Shown piece by piece: positions 14,276 through 27,527 of a stretch of 64,000 nt of DNA (its first letter is position 1; the number at the start of each line of letters is the position of its first letter). A program made the translations under genes and the position numbers. The notes beneath the pieces were generated by a model, which saw only the letters and a program-made list of their open reading frames with translations, was not told the DNA's origin and made no database searches. The stretch comes from a virus. The stretch lies in IMG/VR virus record IMGVR_UViG_3300031705_000002, positions 30,958 through 94,957 of that record; one strand, given 5' to 3'.

Positions 14276-15454
14276 CTAGTCTAAATTTACTTGTAAGTGC
14301 CCTTCACACCCTTTACTTTTATTCCATATATACGCCTGAGCTTCTCTCATGGCCCCGTAACCCATCACCTTATGCCAAGTATCGTTAGGGCAAATACTAG
14401 GCAGGAACCTTACTTTAATCCCTCCTGTGTACGTGTTAACAATCTCTCTATGTTGATGTCCACAGTGTATCTCTCTATATTTACATTTAGCAAATTTTAC
14501 AGGTTGCTCTGTAGCCATTATTATAGGCATGACTGCAGGTTTTTCTTTGTCTCCGTGGGTAAACATTATAAGGTTTGTTCCGTACACATAGTACTTCCTA
14601 GACTCATAACTATTATCCACTTCTACTACTGTAGAATCTCTATACCAAGATTCAATAACTTCACCTATGTAGAACATACGTTCGAAGTCATGATTACCTT
14701 GTATTACTATAACGTCTACTGGTGCGAATGCTGCTAAATAATCTATAGCTAACACTAACAACTTCCAATATCCTCTAAAGGTCTCCTGCCATTCCTCAGA
14801 ATCATGCTGAGGAGTTCCCTTAGTTGTTGCTCGGCTGTACCCTTCAGAGTTTAAACCATCATTACCAATAGGAAGGATAAACCTTTCTATGTTAAGTCCA
14901 GTTGCTTTTCGATGTAACTCCTTAATAGTATTAAGGTATATTCGATTAGCTTTCTCTTGGGATACTCCCGTTATCTTACCATAATGAAAATCAGGTAAAG
15001 ATATTTCGTATGCTACTGGATCCCCTATCTTAAAATCATAGGCTGGATCTGGATGCTCGGGTACGTATTCCTGCATCTCTTTAAAGAACTCTTCTTTAAA
15101 CTCAATTAAGTTTGCTGCCTGCGGTTTAGTTACCACAGAGAACCTAGAGTCTCCCTTAACTGTTTGCCAGTGTTTAACCGACGTTACCTCTTTTTGATTT
15201 ATACCTTTTTCCTTCAGGTGTATATCTAGTTCGGGAAGGTACGCATTCTCAGCTGAACTGTAGTCTTTCGTGTCATTTTCATTAGAGTTTTTATCTGACT
15301 CCTGCCCTGACCACTTAAATCCTCCTGCGGAATTCCTAGCTCCTAATAATACTTTTCTTATACTACTGTCGTTTACTCCCGACTCTCGCATAGCTTCCAT
15401 GATTGTTGCGTACTCCCCTACAATATTGCCTTGGCTATCAATTTGTAAAATCAT
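14276..15454 (-). CDS. Metallophosphoesterase copy B with NUMOD1-like N-terminal domain
   Basis: 392 residues. The catalytic domain carries D155-x-H157, G197-N-D199, G253-N-H-D256, H300-G-D302 and G332-H-Q-H335, all ligands of the calcineurin-like fold. The N-terminal 48 residues (QIDSQGNIVGEYATI, then AMRESGVNDSSIRKVLLGAR and SAGGFKW) look like a NUMOD1 domain, the small DNA-binding helix-turn-helix usually attached to homing endonucleases. Copy A has a different N-terminus here, so the two paralogues share core and order but not the targeting domain. Starts with a four-base overlap (ATGA) with the holin gene. Nuclease or phosphatase activity on DNA is inferred. Confidence 0.85.
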   Translation of the reverse strand: MILQIDSQGNIVGEYATIMEAMRESGVNDSSIRKVLLGARNSAGGFKWSGQESDKNSNENDTKDYSSAENAYLPELDIHLKEKGINQKEVTSVKHWQTVKGDSRFSVVTKPQAANLIEFKEEFFKEMQEYVPEHPDPAYDFKIGDPVAYEISLPDFHYGKITGVSQEKANRIYLNTIKELHRKATGLNIERFILPIGNDGLNSEGYSRATTKGTPQHDSEEWQETFRGYWKLLVLAIDYLAAFAPVDVIVIQGNHDFERMFYIGEVIESWYRDSTVVEVDNSYESRKYYVYGTNLIMFTHGDKEKPAVMPIIMATEQPVKFAKCKYREIHCGHQHREIVNTYTGGIKVRFLPSICPNDTWHKVMGYGAMREAQAYIWNKSKGCEGHLQVNLD

Positions 15455-15837
15455 TTCTTTTTTATTTTTTCAATACTCCTCCCTGCAAAATAAGCTCCGT
15501 ACACGGTGATTAGTAAAGTTTGGTAGATTGGTTTATAAGCTGCGTCCATTACGAATCCTCCTAGATTACCATCTAAGAAAGACAGTACGACTAGGATTAA
15601 AGTTAAAAAAGCGAGAGCCAAAGGTCTTATGTTCTTGGATAACCAGTTGTCAGACTTCATGTCTGCCTCCCATCTCCTAGAAACTTGTTCCTGGGCATTC
15701 GCTTCAGCTTGCATTAGCACTTCCTCTATCTTTTGACGGGCAGCTAACTTCTCTTCTTTAGAGGTGGTTAGATTATCAAGTACATCTCCTACTTGCTTAA
15801 TCACTCCACCTCCTAATAGGTCTAGTAGTTTACTCAT
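15451..15837 (-). CDS. Holin-like membrane protein (3TM holin family), copy B
   Basis: 128 residues, very similar to the copy at 9206-9592 along its whole length (LLGGGVIKQVGDVLDNLTT, then RPLALAFLTLILVVLSFLD and YQTLLITVYGAYFAGRS). Hydrophobic segments lie at about residues 70-90 and 103-118. It lies directly downstream of the M15 endolysin gene with a four-base overlap, so this is the better candidate for the lysis holin that lets the endolysin reach the wall. Confidence 0.75.
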   Translation of the reverse strand: MSKLLDLLGGGVIKQVGDVLDNLTTSKEEKLAARQKIEEVLMQAEANAQEQVSRRWEADMKSDNWLSKNIRPLALAFLTLILVVLSFLDGNLGGFVMDAAYKPIYQTLLITVYGAYFAGRSIEKIKKK

Positions 15838-16292
15838 GATAAGTCTGCATATTTATATTTAGTGTCATTGTCTTCATCCTTGTAGGCTTCCAACACTTGC
15901 TTTCTATTACCTTCCTTAATCAACGATATGTGTATCCAAGCGAAGTCGAATTCGTTAATCATTTGGTCGAACTCAATACCACTTTCTAATACCCAGTCGT
16001 AGATTTCTTTGTTCGATATTTTACCATCGTTCCAAAATTGCAAATCCAAAGCCTCACCTTTACAATGCTGGCTTTTGTTACTTCCACCGATAGCCCTGTT
16101 GAGGGCTGGGTTGCGATAACCACTACTGATCCTGATAGGACCAAGAGCTTCTCGCATAGGTTGAACAAGGTTAGTAATAATCCTTTGAATACTTCGTAGG
16201 TGTTCTTTGTTGGGGCCATTATCTATCCCCAACCGTTTAGCTGCATTGCTTCGAGTAATCTCAGACAATACAAAATTATCGCTTAATCTCAT
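15834..16292 (-). CDS. Endolysin, peptidase M15 (D-Ala-D-Ala-type carboxypeptidase/endopeptidase)
   Basis: 152 residues, single catalytic domain, no signal peptide. The motif SSGYRNPALNRAIGG followed by SQH76-xxGxAxD83 and WIH121 gives the three zinc ligands of the M15_3 family, which cuts peptidoglycan peptide cross-links. The length is normal for phage M15 endolysins without a binding domain. It is followed by the holin-like gene (four-base overlap) and preceded by a secreted-protein gene whose end overlaps its start by 17 bases. Part of the lysis cassette. Confidence 0.9.
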   Translation of the reverse strand: MRLSDNFVLSEITRSNAAKRLGIDNGPNKEHLRSIQRIITNLVQPMREALGPIRISSGYRNPALNRAIGGSNKSQHCKGEALDLQFWNDGKISNKEIYDWVLESGIEFDQMINEFDFAWIHISLIKEGNRKQVLEAYKDEDNDTKYKYADLS

Positions 16293-16785
16293 CTATGTAC
16301 ACCTTTCTAGTTAATATTCCGTTACTTGCTATATAGAAACCTCTTACAGGTTTTACTTCTCTGCCTAAAATATCGTAATAGTGAGTTGGGATGAAGGGTG
16401 TATTATCAACCTCTTCTATTCCTATAGTCAAGCATCCTACATCTACTAGTTGCTCTTTGAATTCTTGCGGCCAAGTACCAAGCGAATCGATCCAATCTAC
16501 ATCAGATAAGAAGTCATACTCTGTTTGACCTACATATAAGTATGCACCATTCCATCCGTCTCCGTAAGAGTCCATCATGTTTATCTGGTAATACTCTGGT
16601 AATACAACTGCACCTAAATAAGGAGCTATACCTTCTAATAATATACCACCATTACAGGTTAGAATCTGCCAAGTTATCTCATCAGGGTATTCTCCTGTTG
16701 TACACTCTACAAATACTTGTTGCTGCTGTGCTGAAGATGTTAACGACATCAATGTCACGAACACTAAAAATAATAGTTTTTTCAT
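16276..16785 (-). CDS. Secreted protein with DSYGDGWNG motif and T9SS-like C-terminal sorting domain
   Basis: 169 residues. N-terminal signal peptide (MKKLLFLVFVTLMSLTSSAQ). The middle has MMDSYGDGWNGAYLYV, a motif frequent in marine Bacteroidetes secreted proteins. The last 35 residues (YYDILGREVKPVRGFYIASN, then GILTRKVYI) look like a type A T9SS C-terminal domain: Tyr-Asp-xx-Gly-Arg, Gly-xx-Tyr-Ile, and a Lys-Val-x-Ile end. This suggests export across the inner membrane by Sec and then surface display or release by the host type IX system. It sits in a cassette of envelope-directed proteins next to the endolysin. Possible roles are blocking receptors after infection or assisting lysis; both are inference. 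Confidence 0.75.
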   Translation of the reverse strand: MKKLLFLVFVTLMSLTSSAQQQQVFVECTTGEYPDEITWQILTCNGGILLEGIAPYLGAVVLPEYYQINMMDSYGDGWNGAYLYVGQTEYDFLSDVDWIDSLGTWPQEFKEQLVDVGCLTIGIEEVDNTPFIPTHYYDILGREVKPVRGFYIASNGILTRKVYIDEIKR

Positions 16786-17153
16786 TATTGGAATTTGTTA
16801 AATGTTATTTCGTCTATAACAGACTGTACTTCTTTTTTGGTAGCATTCAACTCCATCATAATGTTGGGGTTAAATCTGTTCTGCTCCACACCATTATCGA
16901 AGACAATAATGGTGGGAACTGAGGTTACTTTGTATTTACTCTGAAGGTCGGAGCTCTTGATAATACACACTCTATACGAGGAACAATCTTTTAGAGCCTC
17001 TAGGAATTCAACTTCGTTTCCTTGATTCCATTCTACCCAGAATTCTACGACTACTATACCTTTAGCTGTCTTGGGTCCAAATGAGCTAGAAGTGACAAAC
17101 TCTTGAGCTACAATATTTGTAGTAAGGAGTAGTAATAATAATAAGTATTTCAT
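16785..17153 (-). CDS. Exported thioredoxin-fold protein lacking the CxxC active site
   Basis: 122 residues. Signal peptide MKYLLLLLLLTTNIVAQ. The body follows a thioredoxin fold: VVVEFWVEW (strand before the active site), then QGN where WCxxC would be, and YKVTSVPTIIVFDNG with the conserved cis-proline region. Both active-site cysteines are absent (WNQGN), so it cannot do dithiol exchange in the usual way. It starts with a four-base overlap with the DUF2279-like gene and ends one base into the T9SS-cargo gene. It may be a binding or chaperone protein in the periplasm; function unknown. Confidence 0.7.
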   Translation of the reverse strand: MKYLLLLLLLTTNIVAQEFVTSSSFGPKTAKGIVVVEFWVEWNQGNEVEFLEALKDCSSYRVCIIKSSDLQSKYKVTSVPTIIVFDNGVEQNRFNPNIMMELNATKKEVQSVIDEITFNKFQ

Positions 17154-17452
17154 ATTGCTATTCGTATTGTAACAACTCCTAGCACCGATCCCACTGCGTC
17201 TGCAGCTAAATCACTCCACTCAGGTTGTCCGTGTTTAATGTCATAAATTTCTTTAATACTTCCAGCTAAGACGGCTGCGCATAATCCTATCAGTATCGCT
17301 TTCTTCTTGTCGTTGGTTTTATTGTAAACTACAGCACTAATAGTAGAACTAATTACATAACTCCCACCAAGATGTAGAAGCTTGTCCTGTGGTACTAGTT
17401 GTGCACACACATTACTTGTAATCAATAACGCTATCAAAAGTAGTTTACTCAT
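17150..17452 (-). CDS. Small periplasmic/membrane protein, DUF2279 (YfiM)-like
   Basis: 100 residues. Signal-like N-terminus (MSKLLLIALLITSNVCAQ), then DKLLHLGGSYVISST, a hydrophobic helix (KAILIGLCAAVLAGSIKEIYD) and HGQPEWSDLAADAVGSVLGV. The 'DKxxHxxxS...KExxD...SxxDxxxxxxG' layout matches YfiM/DUF2279 proteins. In Bacteroidetes phages such genes occur near lysis genes and might contribute to outer-membrane disruption. It overlaps neighbours on both sides by four and eight bases, so it is co-translated with the envelope cassette. Confidence 0.6.
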   Translation of the reverse strand: MSKLLLIALLITSNVCAQLVPQDKLLHLGGSYVISSTISAVVYNKTNDKKKAILIGLCAAVLAGSIKEIYDIKHGQPEWSDLAADAVGSVLGVVTIRIAI

Positions 17453-17723
17453 AAAGCTTTTGTTTAATAAGCTTCATGTCTTCTTTCATCTCAGAAACAT
17501 CTTCCTGAGTATTCATGATAGTCTGACGTATCAGCTTATCTTTCATATCGAACTCCATTCGAGTAATAACAGGGTCTATCGGTTCAGGTAACTCCCTAGC
17601 TTCTGCTATATCGTTCTGTAGTGTAAACCACATCCCCACCAATGTTGCTATTAAGAATGCTATACCTCCTAAAGTCTTGAGACTTATCTGTACTGCACTG
17701 TCTTCACTTAATTCTTTAGCCAT
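17445..17723 (-). CDS. Single-pass membrane protein with periplasmic or cytoplasmic coiled coil
   Basis: 92 residues. One transmembrane segment (GGIAFLIATLVGMWFTLQ, about residues 19-36), followed by a Pro-rich linker and a charged coiled coil (TQEDVSEMKEDMKLIKQKL) to the end. The topology resembles inner-membrane spanin or Rz-like subunits, and the position in the lysis/envelope cassette fits that, but no spanin signature can be proved. Overlaps the next gene by eight bases. Confidence 0.55.
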   Translation of the reverse strand: MAKELSEDSAVQISLKTLGGIAFLIATLVGMWFTLQNDIAEARELPEPIDPVITRMEFDMKDKLIRQTIMNTQEDVSEMKEDMKLIKQKLYE

Positions 17724-17726
17724 CTA

Positions 17727-18755
17727 TTAAAATATTAAATAATTTATTCCCGTTTGCATATTATAAGATCTTATATCCCAGTACTTAAGGTGTCTTCCTT
17801 CTACGAAGATACTAAAATGTTTGTTAAATTTAACACCAAACACCACACCAATATCCCATTCCGTCGTTACCCCAGGGTATGAGTAGGAATATTCACTCAA
17901 ACCTTTATGTGCAGGATACACAGAACCCCATGCATGCATCCAAGACTTGCTTGAATAATGATAATAATCGGCTCCTACAACCATAGAAACTTCTTGTTGA
18001 AGACCCAAATCATTAAGTTGCTGATTGTTGTATTCGTTTACAGCATCCCCAAAATGATACGAGTAAAACTCAGGGTCTGACTCAGCGATAACTTCCCCTT
18101 CATGAGACCACACATGATTGTCATCATCAGTGTATCCAAACTCATTAGCTAGCTGCCACCAGTGTTTGTTCTCAGGCTTAGAGAACCATTCCTCTATTGG
18201 AGAGTATCCGTACACAGGGTGAGAACGATGGGCTACGCCTAAAGTAAGGTCGATATTACCAAAACTTTTACGTAGCCTAACCTCGCCCAGAGTATATTTA
18301 AGATTAATTAATCCGTCATCCACATACGAAGCTTTCGATGTTAGGTGATCAGATATGTATCTAACCTTATATTCTTGCTGTTTAAATTTCATCCCTCTAT
18401 TACGAATGGATGAGTACTTAAACAAGTACTCTAAACCAGGTGCGTTAGATATTGTAGCGTAATCGCTACTCTCGTCTTCTGAACCCGTGTAAAAATTACC
18501 CTGTTTTACCTGGTAATCAAAACGTGCTATCTTTCTAAGCCCTATTGTTATGTTATAATTAGGAGCGCTGACCTCAGTCATCTCAACAAGCTGTCCAGAG
18601 CCTGCAATCCCATCAACTATAAAAGCTTGATTCTCTGAGAAGGGTGCTGCCGTAGACATACTTGCATAGAATGTAGCAAACCTAAATAGGGAGAACCCCA
18701 TCTGAGCATTAGCAACCGTGCTAACAAACAGTAATATGTATAATAACTTCTTCAT
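17727..18755 (-). CDS. Outer-membrane beta-barrel-like protein encoded by the phage
   Basis: 342 residues. Signal peptide MKKLLYILLFVSTVANAQ; the mature part has many amphipathic beta strands with aromatic girdles (YNITIGLRKIARFDYQV, YKVRYISDHL, EVRLRKSFGNIDLTLGVAHR, WDIGVVFGVKFNKHFSIFVEG) and ends in Phe (GINYLIF), as outer-membrane barrels often do. A large hydrophilic insertion (residues 185-245) could be an extracellular loop. Overlaps the upstream small membrane-protein gene by four bases. A phage outer-membrane protein could block superinfection or weaken the envelope; this is inference. Confidence 0.65.
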   Translation of the reverse strand: MKKLLYILLFVSTVANAQMGFSLFRFATFYASMSTAAPFSENQAFIVDGIAGSGQLVEMTEVSAPNYNITIGLRKIARFDYQVKQGNFYTGSEDESSDYATISNAPGLEYLFKYSSIRNRGMKFKQQEYKVRYISDHLTSKASYVDDGLINLKYTLGEVRLRKSFGNIDLTLGVAHRSHPVYGYSPIEEWFSKPENKHWWQLANEFGYTDDDNHVWSHEGEVIAESDPEFYSYHFGDAVNEYNNQQLNDLGLQQEVSMVVGADYYHYSSKSWMHAWGSVYPAHKGLSEYSYSYPGVTTEWDIGVVFGVKFNKHFSIFVEGRHLKYWDIRSYNMQTGINYLIF

Positions 18756-18964
18756 TTCTTAGCAAATTTCTCTACCCCTGAAATACCAAAGCATCCTAAG
18801 ACAACCCAAACAAAGGCTTCGTAAACAAATTCGTTTACTACTAGTTCAGCTCCAAGCCACCCCGTAACAAGATCAGCTACCATGATAAGACACATTATAG
18901 CAAATGCTATAAAACCTACAATAGCTTTCTCGTTCCAATTATTATCGTTCTTAAATATTTCCAT
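18752..18964 (-). CDS. Small two-helix membrane protein (possible holin)
   Basis: 70 residues with two hydrophobic segments (AIVGFIAFAIMCLIMVADLV at 14-33 and VYEAFVWVVLGCFGISGV at 47-64) and a short Lys-rich tail (EKFAKK). Size, topology and location at the head of the envelope/lysis cassette make it a candidate second holin or antiholin. No sequence family is recognised. Confidence 0.55.
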   Translation of the reverse strand: MEIFKNDNNWNEKAIVGFIAFAIMCLIMVADLVTGWLGAELVVNEFVYEAFVWVVLGCFGISGVEKFAKK

Positions 18965-19658: not shown

Positions 19659-22600
19659 TTAACATGTTTTACAATTACAAAGATCAGCTAACTTCTCTTT
19701 GTACATTTCTATTTTAATTTGATTACCTTCTTTTAAGGACGCTACATACGCCTGGTATATGGCATATACTTTAAGAGCCTTCAATTGACTCTCTGTGTCT
19801 TCCTTTAAAAGATTAACAGCTGTCATAGAGTTCTCTATACAGTTATGTAACTCCGTTGAAACACAAGACCCATCATCATAAAGAGCATCAATATCATAAT
19901 TGAAAGACCCTATAGTAGTACATCCAGGTTTAATTAGATTTAAAGTGAATGGCTCAAAGTAAGTTGAGTTGTACACAGTCTTAGTTTGTAGTGTATTTCC
20001 ATACTCATCCTTTAGTACATACACAACCATATTATCAGATAAAACCTTAACCCCTATAGGAGTGGATTCTGCTAAAGTAAAGCCCTCACTTACAGAGGCT
20101 CCCTCCGTAAGCGCCCCCGAAAGATCCACTAACTTCTCTCCTGTAGCTACATTGTAGATAACAAAAGCAGTGTCAGAGTAATCCGATACTGGAGACTCCT
20201 CAGTTATTACCTCTACAGTAAAACTAGTGAATTCTCCTTCATCCTCCTTAACATCTCTAGAACACCCTAGGGTATTTATAGCTAATGGAGAGCACCCTAT
20301 AGAGCAGCTTCCTGGTCCAGTTTTTAAAACTATACTACCATCTGCAGTTGTAGACGATCCATGATCTAATACATGTAAAACATTCTCCCCTTTTCTTAAA
20401 GTTAAAGTTAAATCAACCCAAGAATTTAAATAGTTAAACCCTATAGGCATAAACCCTACACAATCAGGAGAGTTTAAAATAGTAGTTATCCCTGAAGCAG
20501 TAACAGTGTTAAGGATAGTCCCTGATATAGTATACAGTATGTAGTCTATATTAGCTTCCGCCCCTTCAGGTTCTACAGTAATAGTGTAAACACCTGATAA
20601 ATCCTCAGTACCTTCAACGTCTTCAAGCTCTATTAGGGTTTGACATAACGACATATCAGGAGTCCAGTAAGTAGGATCCGAAGTTGCCTCAGGGTTAAAC
20701 TCCAAGTAGTCAGTGTTAGGACAGTATGATGTAGGCACTATGTACTCACATACACTGTTATCAGATATTTCACAATCCCCAAGTATCTCTGAAAAGGAAA
20801 CAGCTACTGTATCAGTACACACTGATAAATATCCCCCACTAGTTATACAAGGATCTACACAGGCTCCACACACCCCTGCATCAGGAATGTATAAAGTGCT
20901 TGTAGGAGCAGTAGTAAGATTCCCTACACTAGTAACAATACTTACTACGCCTCCCGTAGACAGTGTTTGAGCTTGACTTTGACTTATAGCTCCTGAGGTT
21001 AGTAAGAACATTACGTTATTACTTTCCGTACCCCAATCCTCATACTGACAAACTCCTGTACATACATATACCGTAGTCACATTAGAGTCTAAGTCTGGGA
21101 AATAAGGAGCAAACGAGATGCCCTGAGTAAGTTCCGCTATAGTTCCGTCAGGATCTAAAGCCATTAAAACTCTATATACATGGTAATTAGTTTCATAAAA
21201 GTTTTGAGGTGTAGCGGTTGTTTCGTCCTGATACACAGCTAAGTGCACAAACCCCTCTATAGTTCCGTGCTCTATAACGTCTGTGTCTACATCTAGTTTA
21301 GTTACAGATATTATATTAGAACCAATATAAGAACCAAATACATCTTCAATATAAACATTATCTATTAGTTCATCCGTCACTCGGAAGTAGAAGGAAACCG
21401 CCTTACCTATAACTGTTGATACAGTGTTTGAGTCTATAGAGCTTACACTTCCTAACACCCCCGTAATAGTATTAACGGAAGGATTAGTTATAGAGTATGA
21501 GAACGTAACCTCCGCATTTTCATCAGCTCCTGCTAAAGTAAGGGTAGGGTTAAGTCTAGTTATATTTTGACATCTTTTAGTTATATACGGATTATCCCTC
21601 GTATAAACTACCTCCCCAGGTATAGGTAGGAGTTCAGATATTACATCGTTAAGTCCTACCTCTAAATCATAATAACCTATAGTATAAGTATCTTCCCCGT
21701 TAACATTAGAGTAGGTACCTGTATGATGAGTAATTATTGGATTACCACTAAAGTATACAGCGTCTACAGAAGAATCTAGAACAGTAAAGTCCTCAGGGTT
21801 TGTGATACCGAAGTATTCACAATTACCCCCCTCCACTAAAGCGGTAGGGTCATGATTGTACGCCTGTGGGTCTGTACATCCCGTACAAGTACTGTTGTTC
21901 CCGTCACACACTCCACACAGATCTACTGTAGAACCTTGACAATCACATACATCGCCAGGAGTAGTAGTGCCTATTACAAACGTAGTCGCATTGTTACACT
22001 CACATTGAGGCACAACCTCATTAGGGCCATTACAAATGAGACAAGCATCAAGCGTTGAAGTACCTCCCTGAACGCCTGCACAGTCCGTATCCGTCTCTGT
22101 TCCTAAAAGAACACAAGCACCAACAAATTCGTCATACACATACCCTGAGCAACACTCGCCGAAAGCAAGTGGGGCTAAACTGGCATAACTCGAGCACCCA
22201 CCTGGAGCACAGTATTGGTTGCCAGCTAAAGTGTATATAGTAGTAGCTTCATCATAAACTGCTCCTACCACAAATTCTGTTGTAGACACCATGCAGTCAT
22301 CAAATGTAACAGTGTTGTCACAGGAATTAGAGATCCCTCCAGGGGAGTATTCTACGGTATATGAGGGAGCTGCAGCTCCGTCAACGCACCCACAGTTAGG
22401 TGAAGCGAAAGGGATATTCCCCTCACAGTCGCAGTAACCTTCAGGTATATCAGCACACGCACATTCATATTCTGTAGCCTCAACTGTAGGGTCGAAGCAT
22501 CCGCACTCTCCCATCTCGAAAGGTGTGGAAGTAAGAACGCCCTCCACGCCATGCGGAATACATTCATTACACTCGTCACTAAAACCTTCGCAGCCATCCA

Positions 22601-25600
22601 CCCCTAAAGACTCAGTTAAAGGTATCCACATCGGAGTCCCTGCATAATTTAATTCTTGCAGGGTAGGGTCTCCAGGGCATATCGCAGAGCTTGAATATGA
22701 TGCATGATACCCGTCGCCGTCTATGTCTAACACATATAGAGACGTCGTATCACTACATATTATCGCCCCTTCAGCATCGTAGCACTGTTGGTTGAAGTCC
22801 GCTATATTACTCTCTCCAGCGCAATCGCAATACTGTCCATGTACCTCTGTAGAGTTTTGTCCCGCACAGTTACATAAAGAATTGTCTATAAAGTTTCCAC
22901 CACAATCACAGTTAACATCCAGTTGGCCTGTACCGCCATCACAGTCACATACACCGTATGCCTGTAAGTATGTTATGGTATTTTGATCTAAATTCCCCGC
23001 TAAGTGGTCTGTGTACTGATCACAATTGCAGTACCCGTTACTATCAGAAATAACAGTGTCAGGGTTGTTAGTACAATCCGTACAATTAGATATACCTGCC
23101 CCTAAATAAGAGGGAGTCAAACCTCCTGCACCATCACAGTTGCAAGCATTCGTAGGATTTACACAAAGACTCTCTAAGTGTTCAGAAGGATAAAGGTCGT
23201 CACCAGAGTTTAGAAGTAAACCATCCTCCACAAAAGATCCTGAAGTTCCGTATCCGTTACAGTTAGTAGTATCTGTTAATAAATCTGAGCATCCATAGAA
23301 GGTGCATGCAGATAAATCTTCTACACAATCAGTGACGCCTTGGCACCCTGCTGCAGAAGTGTTATTTCCTAGGTTTGTCCCCTGAGGACATTCATAGCAT
23401 GCGGTTGTTTGGGTTCCTGTGCCTTCTAGGTATACAGCGCCAGACCCTGCACCAGTTACATCGCCATTGGTATGGCAAACCCCACACTGATCCACGTGAG
23501 TAACTCTGTAATCTCCCATACATACATCACAGGCATCCCCAAAGGTGCCTTCATCAAACGGGGGAGTCGTACAGCTACCATCATTGACGTTAGCTAGGGG
23601 ATTAAAATTACAACACCAGTCATACGTACATCCAAATATAGGAAGAATGTAACCTAGATCCTCTCCTATATCAGTTACAATTCCCCCAAACTCTCCTTTA
23701 GCGGGTAGTAATGGGTAGGCTCCAAGGGAATCCCCCTTATAGAGATCTATACCAAACGCAATGCGAACCGCGTCAAAGTCTTCAGGGTTAACTAATCTAG
23801 ATATTCTAGAGTGGAAGTTAGTACCTATATATATATGCCCATTAGGCAACTTTAAAATATTGTTTATAAGTCCTGCAGCGTTTACATCCTCTACATCAAG
23901 AAGATTCCGTTTTATGTCGTTCGCCGAAATAACAGTACCAGCAGGTAGGTGGGTAAGGGGTGAAAAACCAACCTGCCCTCGTTTATATTTTCTTATACCT
24001 CGAATATCCCCCGCTCCATCCGCAACAGTAACATATACGATGTCTACTGCCAGTTCCATAGAAGCTATAGAACCATATACTGAATCAAATAGCTCTGATA
24101 AAGACATAGTTATTACAGTCGTCGACCCACTAGTTGGAAGTGTAGCCAAAGAGGGAGCGCCGTTGTTGCTTGTATAACTAAGTGCATACAAGGCTTCAGA
24201 TACTTTTAGTATCCCCCCATCAAACGTACCTGACGTACCTGATAAATCTGTAGACAAATGCTCTGTTAAAGTAGATGTAGAAATATCGTTAACAATAGGA
24301 AACGATTGTAGTTTCATTGTAACACCTATATGGGTATAAACATATATAACAGTTCTGTTACCTAGACCTGTATTTATAACACAAGTATCTACTATTACTT
24401 CTGATTCAGGTATAGTTAATATCTCTCCCTCCAAAACTACTGTACCTAAACACATACCCCAAGGAGCTGTGAAGGAGGTACATCCTATACCAAAAGTCAA
24501 CTTATAACTTTTAAATACATTGCCATCTAAGGTTATTATTTTATAGTGAAAATCATCTAATCCTGTGTAAGTTTCCACAGAAATAACCTCTCCCTCTATA
24601 ACGCTTAGTGTGTCTCCTATTCTATTCAGCACAGTGTATGCCTCCTCGCCGTTTATTTTCGCTACAACTGCAACTAAAACTCCGTTAGATGACACTATCC
24701 TAGCTCCCTCTACGGATAAGTCAATATTTTTATTATTTATATAATATTCAAAAGAAGAAACGTCAGCAGGTAAAGATAAATCTTTAAGATTTACTGCTTC
24801 TCTCCCTACATTTGTAGCTACATACATATATTCCTCACTATCCCCTATAGGTAAAAAAGCTCCTGGAGGTGTAGGGGTTATTATATTTAATTGCCTGTGG
24901 TTGTTCGGGTCTCTCCATTCGAGGGAGTGCGTTAGCAAAAATTCTTCATAAGAATTAAAACTTACAGCTACTCCTAGACCTGTTTCTAAGCTAATTTTTG
25001 CAGTATCTATGACTAGCGAATTGTTGTGACCCTCTAATGGGAGAGGCAACTCCTTGATAAGTATGTCAGGCAAATTAATCAAAGTGTCTACAGATGTCTG
25101 AAGGTCAGGGGTAGGTATAACTATATACTCTGTACTACCTTTGGCGTACACATGTATAGCTCCATCCTTACTTAATGAAATATCTGTTATAGTACTAGAT
25201 AAAGGATTGCTTATAGATACGATACTAGACCTTATTTCTCCGTGTATTTCATTCTCAAAGAATTCCTCGGAATTAAGTCTGGTTAAATTGTATACTGTTA
25301 TATACTGATCTCCGCTACTAGCGTCTTCCGATATAGTATATAGAAAATTATCATGAGGAGATAGAACTGCTTTTTTAAATAAAACGCCATAATCTCCTTC
25401 AGTAAGATTGTGATCTGTGTTTGGTGCTGCAGCGTACATATGTATTTCTAATCCGTCCACTTCGGTGGGGGCTAGTAACGCTCCACTTATATTATCTACA
25501 TACGTAAGTATAAACCCAAACTTCCCGCCTATAACTACCAGTTTTTTACCTATCCCTAAGTCTGTTGCACCAGAGTTAAGTAGTGTCGTTACCTGGGATG

Positions 25601-27527
25601 ACACTAGATGCCCTGAGCGTAATCTACTAGATATAATAAAAGGAATATCATTAAGTTTAGCACTATCGTAATCTCCGCTCCCATAATCCACCCCCGTGTA
25701 AACCTCAGTTTCTAAGTCTAAGATAGCATCTAAACCGTCTCCATCCGTTATACCTAGTGTACTAAAATCTAAATATCCCTCCTCGTCTGTAAGGAATTTT
25801 ACTCCAGGTATGTTATACATCCTAGATAAACTTTTTGAAAGACCTCTAGAATCAAGTCCGTCGGACTCGAAGAAACTGTACCCTTTGAAGGTTATTGTAT
25901 AGGCTTTAGCGTCCCCCATACCATCAGTCATCAGTCTTGCAGACATTCCAGTTCCCCCTCCCACTATGTCACCACCCTGCTCTACATATTGGTTTCTAGC
26001 ACTTCTAATATTTACTACATCACTCTGCTGTATACTAACATCTAACAACTCTAAATCTCTATATACCGTATAACTGTCTTGTACAGGAGATAATGCCAAT
26101 GTGAGTGTTCTAGGAAGAGTCATCCCTATAAATGAGGTACCAGCATCCTGTGTACGCGATGAGAGTATTGAGGCAACCCTACCATGAAAAGCTTTAGATT
26201 TACCTACAGAATTCTCTGCATAGTATATAGTACTTTCGTCTTCAAAAAGACCTGAACTCTCTATAATACCCCCTACAAACTCTCCTCCTATAACAATACC
26301 TGGAGTATCTATATGGAAAGTATTTACAATCTCCCCTAATTCTACGTCAGGGTTGTCGCAGTCTATCCCTGGGTAATCCGCAGGGGTTCTATCTAAAATA
26401 GTCTTAACAGATAGGTACGCGCCAGAGGTAAAAAATATATTGGTATATTCCTCCCCTACATCTGTAACACTTCGAACAGAGAGAAACTTCTCCTTAGCCA
26501 CAAACTCTGAGGGCTCTAAATCTGTGTGAAGACCTGTACCATGGTAAAAGTTCGCCATAGAGGTTCCAAGCCTATCTGAAATGGATGCCACCCATTTACC
26601 ATCTAAAATACCAATAAATATATAGTTTAAAACTATAGAGTTTTCTTCTAATATTGAAGAGGATGTTACGTAGTCTAGGGTATCACTCTTAACGGGGGAA
26701 ACATAAGAAGCCCCACTCATCAAATCAACATAATTAAACATATCCTCAAACGCCCCTAAGAGTATATAGTTGTGGGTAGGTACCACAAACCTTGAAGCAT
26801 CTATATCATGGAAGGTTTTTGTTTTAACAACTTTGGCGCAAGATCCATCATCTACGTTAGCATTAGAATTAAAGTTAGAAGATAAAGAATTAGTACACCC
26901 ATAAACCCAAGGGTTAGTGCTATTTGTACCTCCGTATAGTTTAAAAATATGTGACTTTAAAATCTTATATCTATTCAGCACATAAGTAGTAATATCTCCT
27001 TCGGGAGATGTTCTGATGCCGTGTTTACTATGAAACACGTTCCCGTGGTATGAAACGTTAACTACTGTATCTCCCTTCTGATCTCCTAACCCTAAAAGGT
27101 TACCTATGTAATGTAAGGTAGCGGGCATCATGTTTACCCTCTTAGGTAATAGTGTAGTACCCCAAGAAGTGGAATTACTGTATGTGATTGAAGTCTTAGT
27201 AACTTTTGTATCAGTAATTGCAGAAGAAAAGTCAAACAAAATGTCTGCCTCCTTTTTGCTTACCTCCTTAAACTTAACAAGTAGATTCCCGTCCAGGTGC
27301 ATATTATTACTATACAAGTCTGTCAATAGGGACTCCCATTGAAATAATGCATTATGTATATCTATGACAATACCTCCTATATCACTAGGAACTTTAGACG
27401 AATCCTGGAAATAGTTTGTATCTATATGGTAACCCAACTCTAATATATCAGAACTTCCCGCTTTAACATTGTTAATAGCAGTAAGTAACGGTTGGAATAT
27501 CTTTAATGAGTTTAATTTATAAGCCAT
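19659..27527 (-). CDS. Giant Cys-rich adhesin/tail protein (2,622 residues)
   Basis: The largest complete gene in the window. The N-terminal half (about residues 1-1,290) is beta-rich with propeller-like repeats. It holds one early Cys module near residue 210 (GCTNSLSSNF...DDGSC). Residues about 1,295-1,900 are very rich in Cys, with many 'CDCxG' and 'CGVCxG' units, a calcium-site-like LDIDGDGY and full modules such as CTGCTDPQAYNHDP. Another module (GCTTIGSFNYDID, then DDGSC) lies near 2,535, and the C-terminus ends LADLCNCKTC. Such modules are typical of cell-surface proteins of marine Bacteroidetes. No signal peptide is seen, so it is probably a virion adhesin rather than a secreted protein. 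Confidence 0.75.
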   Translation of the reverse strand: MAYKLNSLKIFQPLLTAINNVKAGSSDILELGYHIDTNYFQDSSKVPSDIGGIVIDIHNALFQWESLLTDLYSNNMHLDGNLLVKFKEVSKKEADILFDFSSAITDTKVTKTSITYSNSTSWGTTLLPKRVNMMPATLHYIGNLLGLGDQKGDTVVNVSYHGNVFHSKHGIRTSPEGDITTYVLNRYKILKSHIFKLYGGTNSTNPWVYGCTNSLSSNFNSNANVDDGSCAKVVKTKTFHDIDASRFVVPTHNYILLGAFEDMFNYVDLMSGASYVSPVKSDTLDYVTSSSILEENSIVLNYIFIGILDGKWVASISDRLGTSMANFYHGTGLHTDLEPSEFVAKEKFLSVRSVTDVGEEYTNIFFTSGAYLSVKTILDRTPADYPGIDCDNPDVELGEIVNTFHIDTPGIVIGGEFVGGIIESSGLFEDESTIYYAENSVGKSKAFHGRVASILSSRTQDAGTSFIGMTLPRTLTLALSPVQDSYTVYRDLELLDVSIQQSDVVNIRSARNQYVEQGGDIVGGGTGMSARLMTDGMGDAKAYTITFKGYSFFESDGLDSRGLSKSLSRMYNIPGVKFLTDEEGYLDFSTLGITDGDGLDAILDLETEVYTGVDYGSGDYDSAKLNDIPFIISSRLRSGHLVSSQVTTLLNSGATDLGIGKKLVVIGGKFGFILTYVDNISGALLAPTEVDGLEIHMYAAAPNTDHNLTEGDYGVLFKKAVLSPHDNFLYTISEDASSGDQYITVYNLTRLNSEEFFENEIHGEIRSSIVSISNPLSSTITDISLSKDGAIHVYAKGSTEYIVIPTPDLQTSVDTLINLPDILIKELPLPLEGHNNSLVIDTAKISLETGLGVAVSFNSYEEFLLTHSLEWRDPNNHRQLNIITPTPPGAFLPIGDSEEYMYVATNVGREAVNLKDLSLPADVSSFEYYINNKNIDLSVEGARIVSSNGVLVAVVAKINGEEAYTVLNRIGDTLSVIEGEVISVETYTGLDDFHYKIITLDGNVFKSYKLTFGIGCTSFTAPWGMCLGTVVLEGEILTIPESEVIVDTCVINTGLGNRTVIYVYTHIGVTMKLQSFPIVNDISTSTLTEHLSTDLSGTSGTFDGGILKVSEALYALSYTSNNGAPSLATLPTSGSTTVITMSLSELFDSVYGSIASMELAVDIVYVTVADGAGDIRGIRKYKRGQVGFSPLTHLPAGTVISANDIKRNLLDVEDVNAAGLINNILKLPNGHIYIGTNFHSRISRLVNPEDFDAVRIAFGIDLYKGDSLGAYPLLPAKGEFGGIVTDIGEDLGYILPIFGCTYDWCCNFNPLANVNDGSCTTPPFDEGTFGDACDVCMGDYRVTHVDQCGVCHTNGDVTGAGSGAVYLEGTGTQTTACYECPQGTNLGNNTSAAGCQGVTDCVEDLSACTFYGCSDLLTDTTNCNGYGTSGSFVEDGLLLNSGDDLYPSEHLESLCVNPTNACNCDGAGGLTPSYLGAGISNCTDCTNNPDTVISDSNGYCNCDQYTDHLAGNLDQNTITYLQAYGVCDCDGGTGQLDVNCDCGGNFIDNSLCNCAGQNSTEVHGQYCDCAGESNIADFNQQCYDAEGAIICSDTTSLYVLDIDGDGYHASYSSSAICPGDPTLQELNYAGTPMWIPLTESLGVDGCEGFSDECNECIPHGVEGVLTSTPFEMGECGCFDPTVEATEYECACADIPEGYCDCEGNIPFASPNCGCVDGAAAPSYTVEYSPGGISNSCDNTVTFDDCMVSTTEFVVGAVYDEATTIYTLAGNQYCAPGGCSSYASLAPLAFGECCSGYVYDEFVGACVLLGTETDTDCAGVQGGTSTLDACLICNGPNEVVPQCECNNATTFVIGTTTPGDVCDCQGSTVDLCGVCDGNNSTCTGCTDPQAYNHDPTALVEGGNCEYFGITNPEDFTVLDSSVDAVYFSGNPIITHHTGTYSNVNGEDTYTIGYYDLEVGLNDVISELLPIPGEVVYTRDNPYITKRCQNITRLNPTLTLAGADENAEVTFSYSITNPSVNTITGVLGSVSSIDSNTVSTVIGKAVSFYFRVTDELIDNVYIEDVFGSYIGSNIISVTKLDVDTDVIEHGTIEGFVHLAVYQDETTATPQNFYETNYHVYRVLMALDPDGTIAELTQGISFAPYFPDLDSNVTTVYVCTGVCQYEDWGTESNNVMFLLTSGAISQSQAQTLSTGGVVSIVTSVGNLTTAPTSTLYIPDAGVCGACVDPCITSGGYLSVCTDTVAVSFSEILGDCEISDNSVCEYIVPTSYCPNTDYLEFNPEATSDPTYWTPDMSLCQTLIELEDVEGTEDLSGVYTITVEPEGAEANIDYILYTISGTILNTVTASGITTILNSPDCVGFMPIGFNYLNSWVDLTLTLRKGENVLHVLDHGSSTTADGSIVLKTGPGSCSIGCSPLAINTLGCSRDVKEDEGEFTSFTVEVITEESPVSDYSDTAFVIYNVATGEKLVDLSGALTEGASVSEGFTLAESTPIGVKVLSDNMVVYVLKDEYGNTLQTKTVYNSTYFEPFTLNLIKPGCTTIGSFNYDIDALYDDGSCVSTELHNCIENSMTAVNLLKEDTESQLKALKVYAIYQAYVASLKEGNQIKIEMYKEKLADLCNCKTC

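Follow-up and report, generated by a model that had tools for sequence, protein, structure and literature searches.

The DNA studied here, referred to as the window, is a stretch of 64,000 nucleotides covering bases 30958-94957 of the 94957-base, possibly incomplete IMG/VR record IMGVR_UViG_3300031705_000002. Matches to a Crassvirus capsid (PF23898, E=7e-128), a portal (phrog_6547, E=2e-139) and a terminase (phrog_6681, E=5e-119) place the phage among the crAss-like phages (Crassvirales). Among 26 contigs of relatives, terminase phrog_6681 was matched in 25 and the capsid above cut-off in 11. Six open reading frames (ORFs) of the window lie on the minus strand between the gene of a 2622-amino-acid (aa) late protein and the lysis genes. 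A sequence-only reading had described them as a compact envelope cassette beside the endolysin gene that could serve either outer-membrane disruption or superinfection exclusion by surface remodelling. In this study, we show that genes for a predicted outer-membrane barrel, a protein with one transmembrane (TM) segment and a putative coiled coil (TMcc) and an exported thioredoxin-fold protein form a conserved core, usually together with an exported protein carrying a C-terminal tail. We tentatively propose that this module completes host lysis by disruption of the outer membrane.

Gene layout and conservation of the module

The six ORFs were found where the sequence-only reading had placed them, tightly packed on one strand (Table 1). 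Along the row from TM2 to the endolysin gene the gaps are -4, +3, -8, -4 and -1 bases, followed by -17 into the endolysin gene. The ORFs are genes and not chance frames, since order and frames are kept in many relatives and the ratio of non-synonymous to synonymous substitutions (dN/dS) of the module genes is ~0.03-0.16 among near relatives, comparable to that of the endolysin gene. The module genes are under strong purifying selection.

Table 1. Genes of the module region and the adjoining lysis genes (positions in the window)
Feature	Position	Strand	Evidence
TM2, 70 aa, two TM segments, optional neighbour	18752..18964	-	hydropathy, alignment
Outer-membrane barrel (predicted), 342 aa, signal peptide, C-terminal Phe, core	17727..18755	-	AlphaFold2 model, VIA-align
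TMcc, 92 aa, one N-terminal TM segment and charged helix, core	17445..17723	-	hydropathy, alignment
DUF2279-like exported/membrane protein, 100 aa, optional	17150..17452	-	PF10043 26.2 bits
Exported thioredoxin-fold protein, 122 aa, NxxN, core	16785..17153	-	PF00085 24.2 bits
Exported tailed protein, 169 aa, signal peptide, beta-rich body and tail	16276..16785	-	alignment
M15 endolysin	15834..16292	-	PF08291 E=4e-17; phrog_894 E=5e-32
Holin, GTA_holin_3TM family	15451..15837	-	PF11351 29.7 bits (cut-off 24.8), E=1e-6; phrog_3427 E=3e-29

Relatives were collected from IMG/VR with two single proteins (barrel and endolysin) and two alignments (barrel and thioredoxin) as queries, and more than 200 loci were compared; the two alignment searches yielded at least 500 relatives each. 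Loci were obtained through the barrel, the thioredoxin or the endolysin, and any count informs only on genes other than the query. Gene-order tables reveal a fixed core of barrel, TMcc and thioredoxin, usually extended by the exported tailed protein. Where more than 6 kb of sequence follows the barrel gene (72 distinct barrels), the thioredoxin gene was found within 7 kb in 69 cases; where more than 6.5 kb precedes the thioredoxin gene (80 thioredoxins), a barrel was found in 76. TMcc is encoded directly upstream of the thioredoxin gene (108/116), most commonly with an overlap of 4 or 8 bases; in the window the DUF2279-like gene separates the two. In 14 contigs that carry a related endolysin with no module beside it, profile models of thioredoxin and barrel find neither protein anywhere on the contig, and the same models do match in module-bearing contigs. 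A few contigs have TMcc and thioredoxin without the barrel, and gene content between barrel and TMcc differs among loci. Pairwise distances across 44 contigs, kinship ignored, correlate between barrel and thioredoxin (0.86), TMcc and thioredoxin (0.79) and barrel and TMcc (0.74).

Conservation as a unit, which had been put forward as a check on the cassette, thus clearly holds for the barrel, TMcc, thioredoxin and tailed protein and fails for the two remaining genes. The TM2 gene, whose product agrees with the small two-helix membrane protein described before, was found in 82 loci at variable positions relative to the other genes and is an optional neighbour outside the core. The DUF2279-like gene is likewise accessory, being present in 11 of the fetched loci. 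The name given to its product is marginal: PF10043 does match (E=1.3e-5), at a score under the 28.6-bit cut-off. The protein also matches phrog_26616, annotated as lipoprotein (E=3e-10), yet a lipobox is absent here.

A host-derived origin of the barrel was considered and rejected: in GTDB genomes the barrel profile matched no more than two fragments at contig ends, and both belong to a single metagenome-assembled genome of the alphaproteobacterium Maricaulis. Very long ORFs adjoin these fragments (L114:10001-10519 and L115:6265-6573), an arrangement also seen in phage contigs, and the two contigs are likely of phage origin and binned by mistake. Another contig of 96 kb (L053, G016) has thioredoxin, endolysin and holin matches both at ~5.4-6.6 kb and at ~92.7-93.9 kb, probably due to a terminal repeat or an assembly effect.

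Two neighbours flank the region in the window. The 2622-aa late protein (19659-27527), with many Cys-rich '..DGSC' repeats, adjoins the module, and relatives of 2000-3300 aa occupy the equivalent place in many contigs. Directly after the holin gene, positions 14276-15454 encode a phosphoesterase/exonuclease-like protein (phrog_704, E=3e-50) that starts with a NUMOD-like stretch (PF22083, E=7e-4, under cut-off).

Predicted proteins of the core

The outer-membrane barrel of the sequence-only reading is borne out by a predicted barrel fold, a signal peptide (judged by eye) and a C-terminal aromatic residue, which is Phe in 104 of 108 distinct homologues. The AlphaFold2 model (pLDDT 74) has ~12 strands and a helical insertion (residues ~182-250). 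In VIA-align comparisons it is closest to KdgM (Z 15.1, root-mean-square deviation 3.2 over 163 residues), followed by NanC, EstA and NalP (Z 14-15), with OMPLA close. The barrel would thus share its 12-strand outer-membrane fold with small porins of the KdgM/NanC type and with autotransporter translocator barrels, but differs from them by ~10% identity, by the helical insertion and by being phage-borne. Pfam and PDB contain no sequence relatives. The unnamed viral protein A0A516LKJ4, of which BFVD holds a model, is a probable homologue by sequence (24% identity, E=1.7e-24). An OMPLA-like phospholipase was rejected as identity of the barrel: its AHRSH motif recalls the H-x-S of OMPLA, yet Ser is replaced by Ala in several type-A barrels, and a second barrel subfamily is missing both His and Ser.

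TMcc combines an N-terminal TM segment with a strongly conserved charged helix. It shows a weak match to the Rz-like family phrog_7686 (E=0.035). In phages that lack the module, too, small TM-coiled-coil proteins (75-100 aa) are encoded immediately upstream of the endolysin gene (L068:4765-5058, L069:7695-7922, L108:9364-9666); these are i-spanin-like candidates related to TMcc.

The third core protein carries a signal peptide and matches thioredoxin at a PF00085 score just above the cut-off of 23.5 bits; its profile matches PDB thioredoxins with E=3e-11. It has the fold and the cis-proline (P80) in common with thioredoxins, but is exported and carries asparagines (N43 and N46) in place of both cysteines of the active-site CxxC. 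The description as a Cys-less thioredoxin has to be corrected, as Cys57, which is conserved, and Cys63 are present and only the CxxC is missing. NxxN was found in all 123 distinct homologues, including 96/96 from loci that had not been obtained with a thioredoxin query; the cis-proline is also kept in 96/96 of the latter. With Asn at both active-site positions throughout, no dithiol chemistry is expected there and the protein is unlikely to be a redox enzyme. The alignment indicates that the NxxN surface of the fold is constrained.

The body of the window's exported tailed protein is beta-rich and contains the motif DSYGDGWNG; the best fold match among the chains compared was weak and CBM60-like (Z 5.4). 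In a distant clade the module contains a Cys-rich exported protein of 180-310 aa instead, whose gene immediately follows that of the barrel in 48 of 50 loci. Its body shows weak similarity to LDL-receptor class A repeats (E=0.005) and is possibly calcium-binding. When the window protein and the distant-clade protein were compared with hhalign, the tails matched with 95.6% probability (E=1.3e-8) and the bodies with 0.1%. Homologous tails on unrelated bodies point to a conserved C-terminal tag on replaceable exported bodies. No other ORF of the fetched loci matches the tail credibly, and the tail gave zero matches in PDB.

Earlier, this protein had been called a cargo like those of the type IX secretion system (T9SS). 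The signal peptide and a T9SS-like C-terminal motif agree with that. We take the motif YYDxLGRxV...GFYI...RKxYI to resemble a T9SS type A sorting tail (of the TIGR04183/PF18962 kind), but the curated models do not confirm it: none of the T9SS sorting-domain models of NCBIfam and Pfam matched at E<=1 in 29 + 29 tailed proteins. Near the distant-clade module, L138:13642-14163 encodes a soluble PAP2-type phosphatase (PF01569, E=5e-8) that has no obvious signal peptide, and a similar ORF is found at L158:13830-14372.

Lysis genes and the outer membrane

A holin was matched in 21 of 28 long contigs. In 17 of these 21 (43-96 kb) it is no more than 3 kb away from the thioredoxin gene (15/19 if two contigs found by the endolysin query alone are set aside), in four of them on the opposite strand. 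The cell-wall genes that flank the module differ between clades and comprise M15 endolysins, relatives of the phrog_33083 endolysin and of the phrog_822 amidase, and DUF5675 proteins. In contig G020 the holin is 34 kb from the module and an M15 endolysin 3.5 kb.

An all-frame lipoprotein scan, which recovered the controls lambda Rz1 and Bor and T1 gp11 and Cor, found in the 95-kb, possibly incomplete record only four ORFs, all antisense within long late genes and none credible. We therefore reject a lipoprotein spanin hidden in an alternative frame. With a canonical holin and endolysin and no credible lipoprotein ORF, the phage counts as spanin-less in the sense of Kongari et al. (PMC6139136). 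Spanin-less phage genomes are a recognised open problem, Bacteroides and Croceibacter phages are among the cases, and an outer-membrane protein has been suggested as a possible o-spanin (PMC6139136). In a later survey, the spanins reported from Bacteroidetes phages were all unimolecular (PMC12596118). The idea that module and lipoprotein spanin exclude each other gained no support, as a lipoprotein ORF was found neither among 53 contigs that carry the thioredoxin nor among 16 that lack it.

Proximity to holin and endolysin and lack of a lipoprotein gene lead us to favour an envelope module that takes the place of spanins and finishes host lysis, late in infection, by disrupting the outer membrane. 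We give this reading a probability of about 0.4. Co-variation of barrel, TMcc and thioredoxin, together with purifying selection, is in keeping with a single complex of these proteins. TMcc would reside in the inner membrane, its helix projecting into the periplasm, and there the thioredoxin-fold protein, presumably redox-dead, would serve as an adaptor, binding by way of its NxxN face. The barrel would be the partner in the outer membrane, and the tailed protein may be carried to the surface or anchored there. Once holin and endolysin have opened inner membrane and wall, the complex could pull together or destabilise the outer membrane. That this specific assembly of coiled coil, NxxN adaptor, barrel and tail-tagged protein is a spanin-independent disruption machine, widespread in marine crAss-like phages, is a somewhat more doubtful proposition than the lytic role as such.

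Several observations weigh against a lytic role. The module may be missing while the lysis genes stay, and in the L138-type clade it is far from recognised lysis genes (G001, G004 and G046 show only weak holin matches ~40 kb off). The 16 contigs with a related endolysin and without the module also lack a lipoprotein ORF near the endolysin, and lysis may thus need neither. Distances of the module genes correlate less with those of the endolysin (r 0.45-0.61) and least with those of the holin (r 0.10-0.25; 44 contigs, kinship ignored), and the role of a surface protein in a spanin-like act is not obvious. The first three of these points keep in play the chief rival, superinfection exclusion or surface remodelling, by which barrel and tailed protein would mask or block receptors late in infection and keep progeny off infected cells and debris, for example through a tagged decoy that occupies the host T9SS. 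A barrel encoded with exported proteins whose replaceable, possibly calcium-binding bodies sit on a conserved T9SS-like tail would suit such a function, and T9SS and gliding mutants of Flavobacterium columnare are phage-resistant (PMC9233685). Exclusion is nevertheless the less probable of the two and in our view unlikely, given the site of the module by the lysis genes, a core under strong purifying selection rather than diversification and a T9SS tail that curated models do not confirm. Moreover, we know of no exclusion system in which four proteins span the envelope. Both functions that the sequence-only reading had offered, disruption and exclusion or remodelling, are possible.

We consider it improbable that the barrel, assisted by TMcc and thioredoxin as periplasmic assembly factors, has a task unrelated to lysis, as channel or anchor of the tailed protein or of host nutrients. 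The top fold matches are indeed oligosaccharide porins and autotransporter translocator barrels, and in the distant clade the tailed gene, alone in having the tail, follows the barrel gene, but small outer-membrane barrels look alike whatever their role, and the lysis-gene proximity would be left unexplained. Least probable by far is a chance collection of unrelated late membrane genes at a permissive spot, with no joint function. It fits the DUF2279-like and TM2 genes and the variable content between barrel and TMcc; for the core it is contradicted by joint presence and absence, by the adjacency of TMcc and thioredoxin and by co-varying distances.

The module offers a testable gene set at the place where the missing outer-membrane function should sit, in hundreds of marine viral contigs. 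If disruption is its function, it would explain how some spanin-less Bacteroidota phages open the outer membrane, and the invariant exchange of CxxC for NxxN offers a single-site handle on the adaptor idea. If exclusion is, the phages would possess an uncommon surface system of several layers.

Comparison with known systems

Among 50,697 deposited phage records, zero matches were found for the barrel, TMcc and the tailed protein, and those for the thioredoxin were generic only. Pfam and PHROGs assign no function to the module, and searches of the open-access literature on crAss-like or flavobacterial phages found no description of it. As an architecture the module appears to be new; its functions are proposed only.

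With spanins (lambda Rz/Rz1, T1 gp11) it has in common the position in the lysis cluster and the supposed step at the outer membrane, and the N-terminal TM segment and helical C-terminal part of TMcc, in their inferred topology, recall an i-spanin. In contrast to spanins, the module has no lipoprotein and instead comprises a barrel, a thioredoxin fold and a tailed exported protein. As the lipoprotein that defines spanins is lacking, we do not file the module as a spanin. The tail is comparable to a T9SS type A sorting tail, a short C-terminal motif on exported proteins with differing bodies, but spans only ~35-45 aa and escapes the curated sorting models. Action at the outer membrane, as by the exclusion proteins Cor of T1 and N15 and Llp of T5, is one possible role of the module; whereas those are single small proteins, the module is a multi-gene set that would reach across the envelope.

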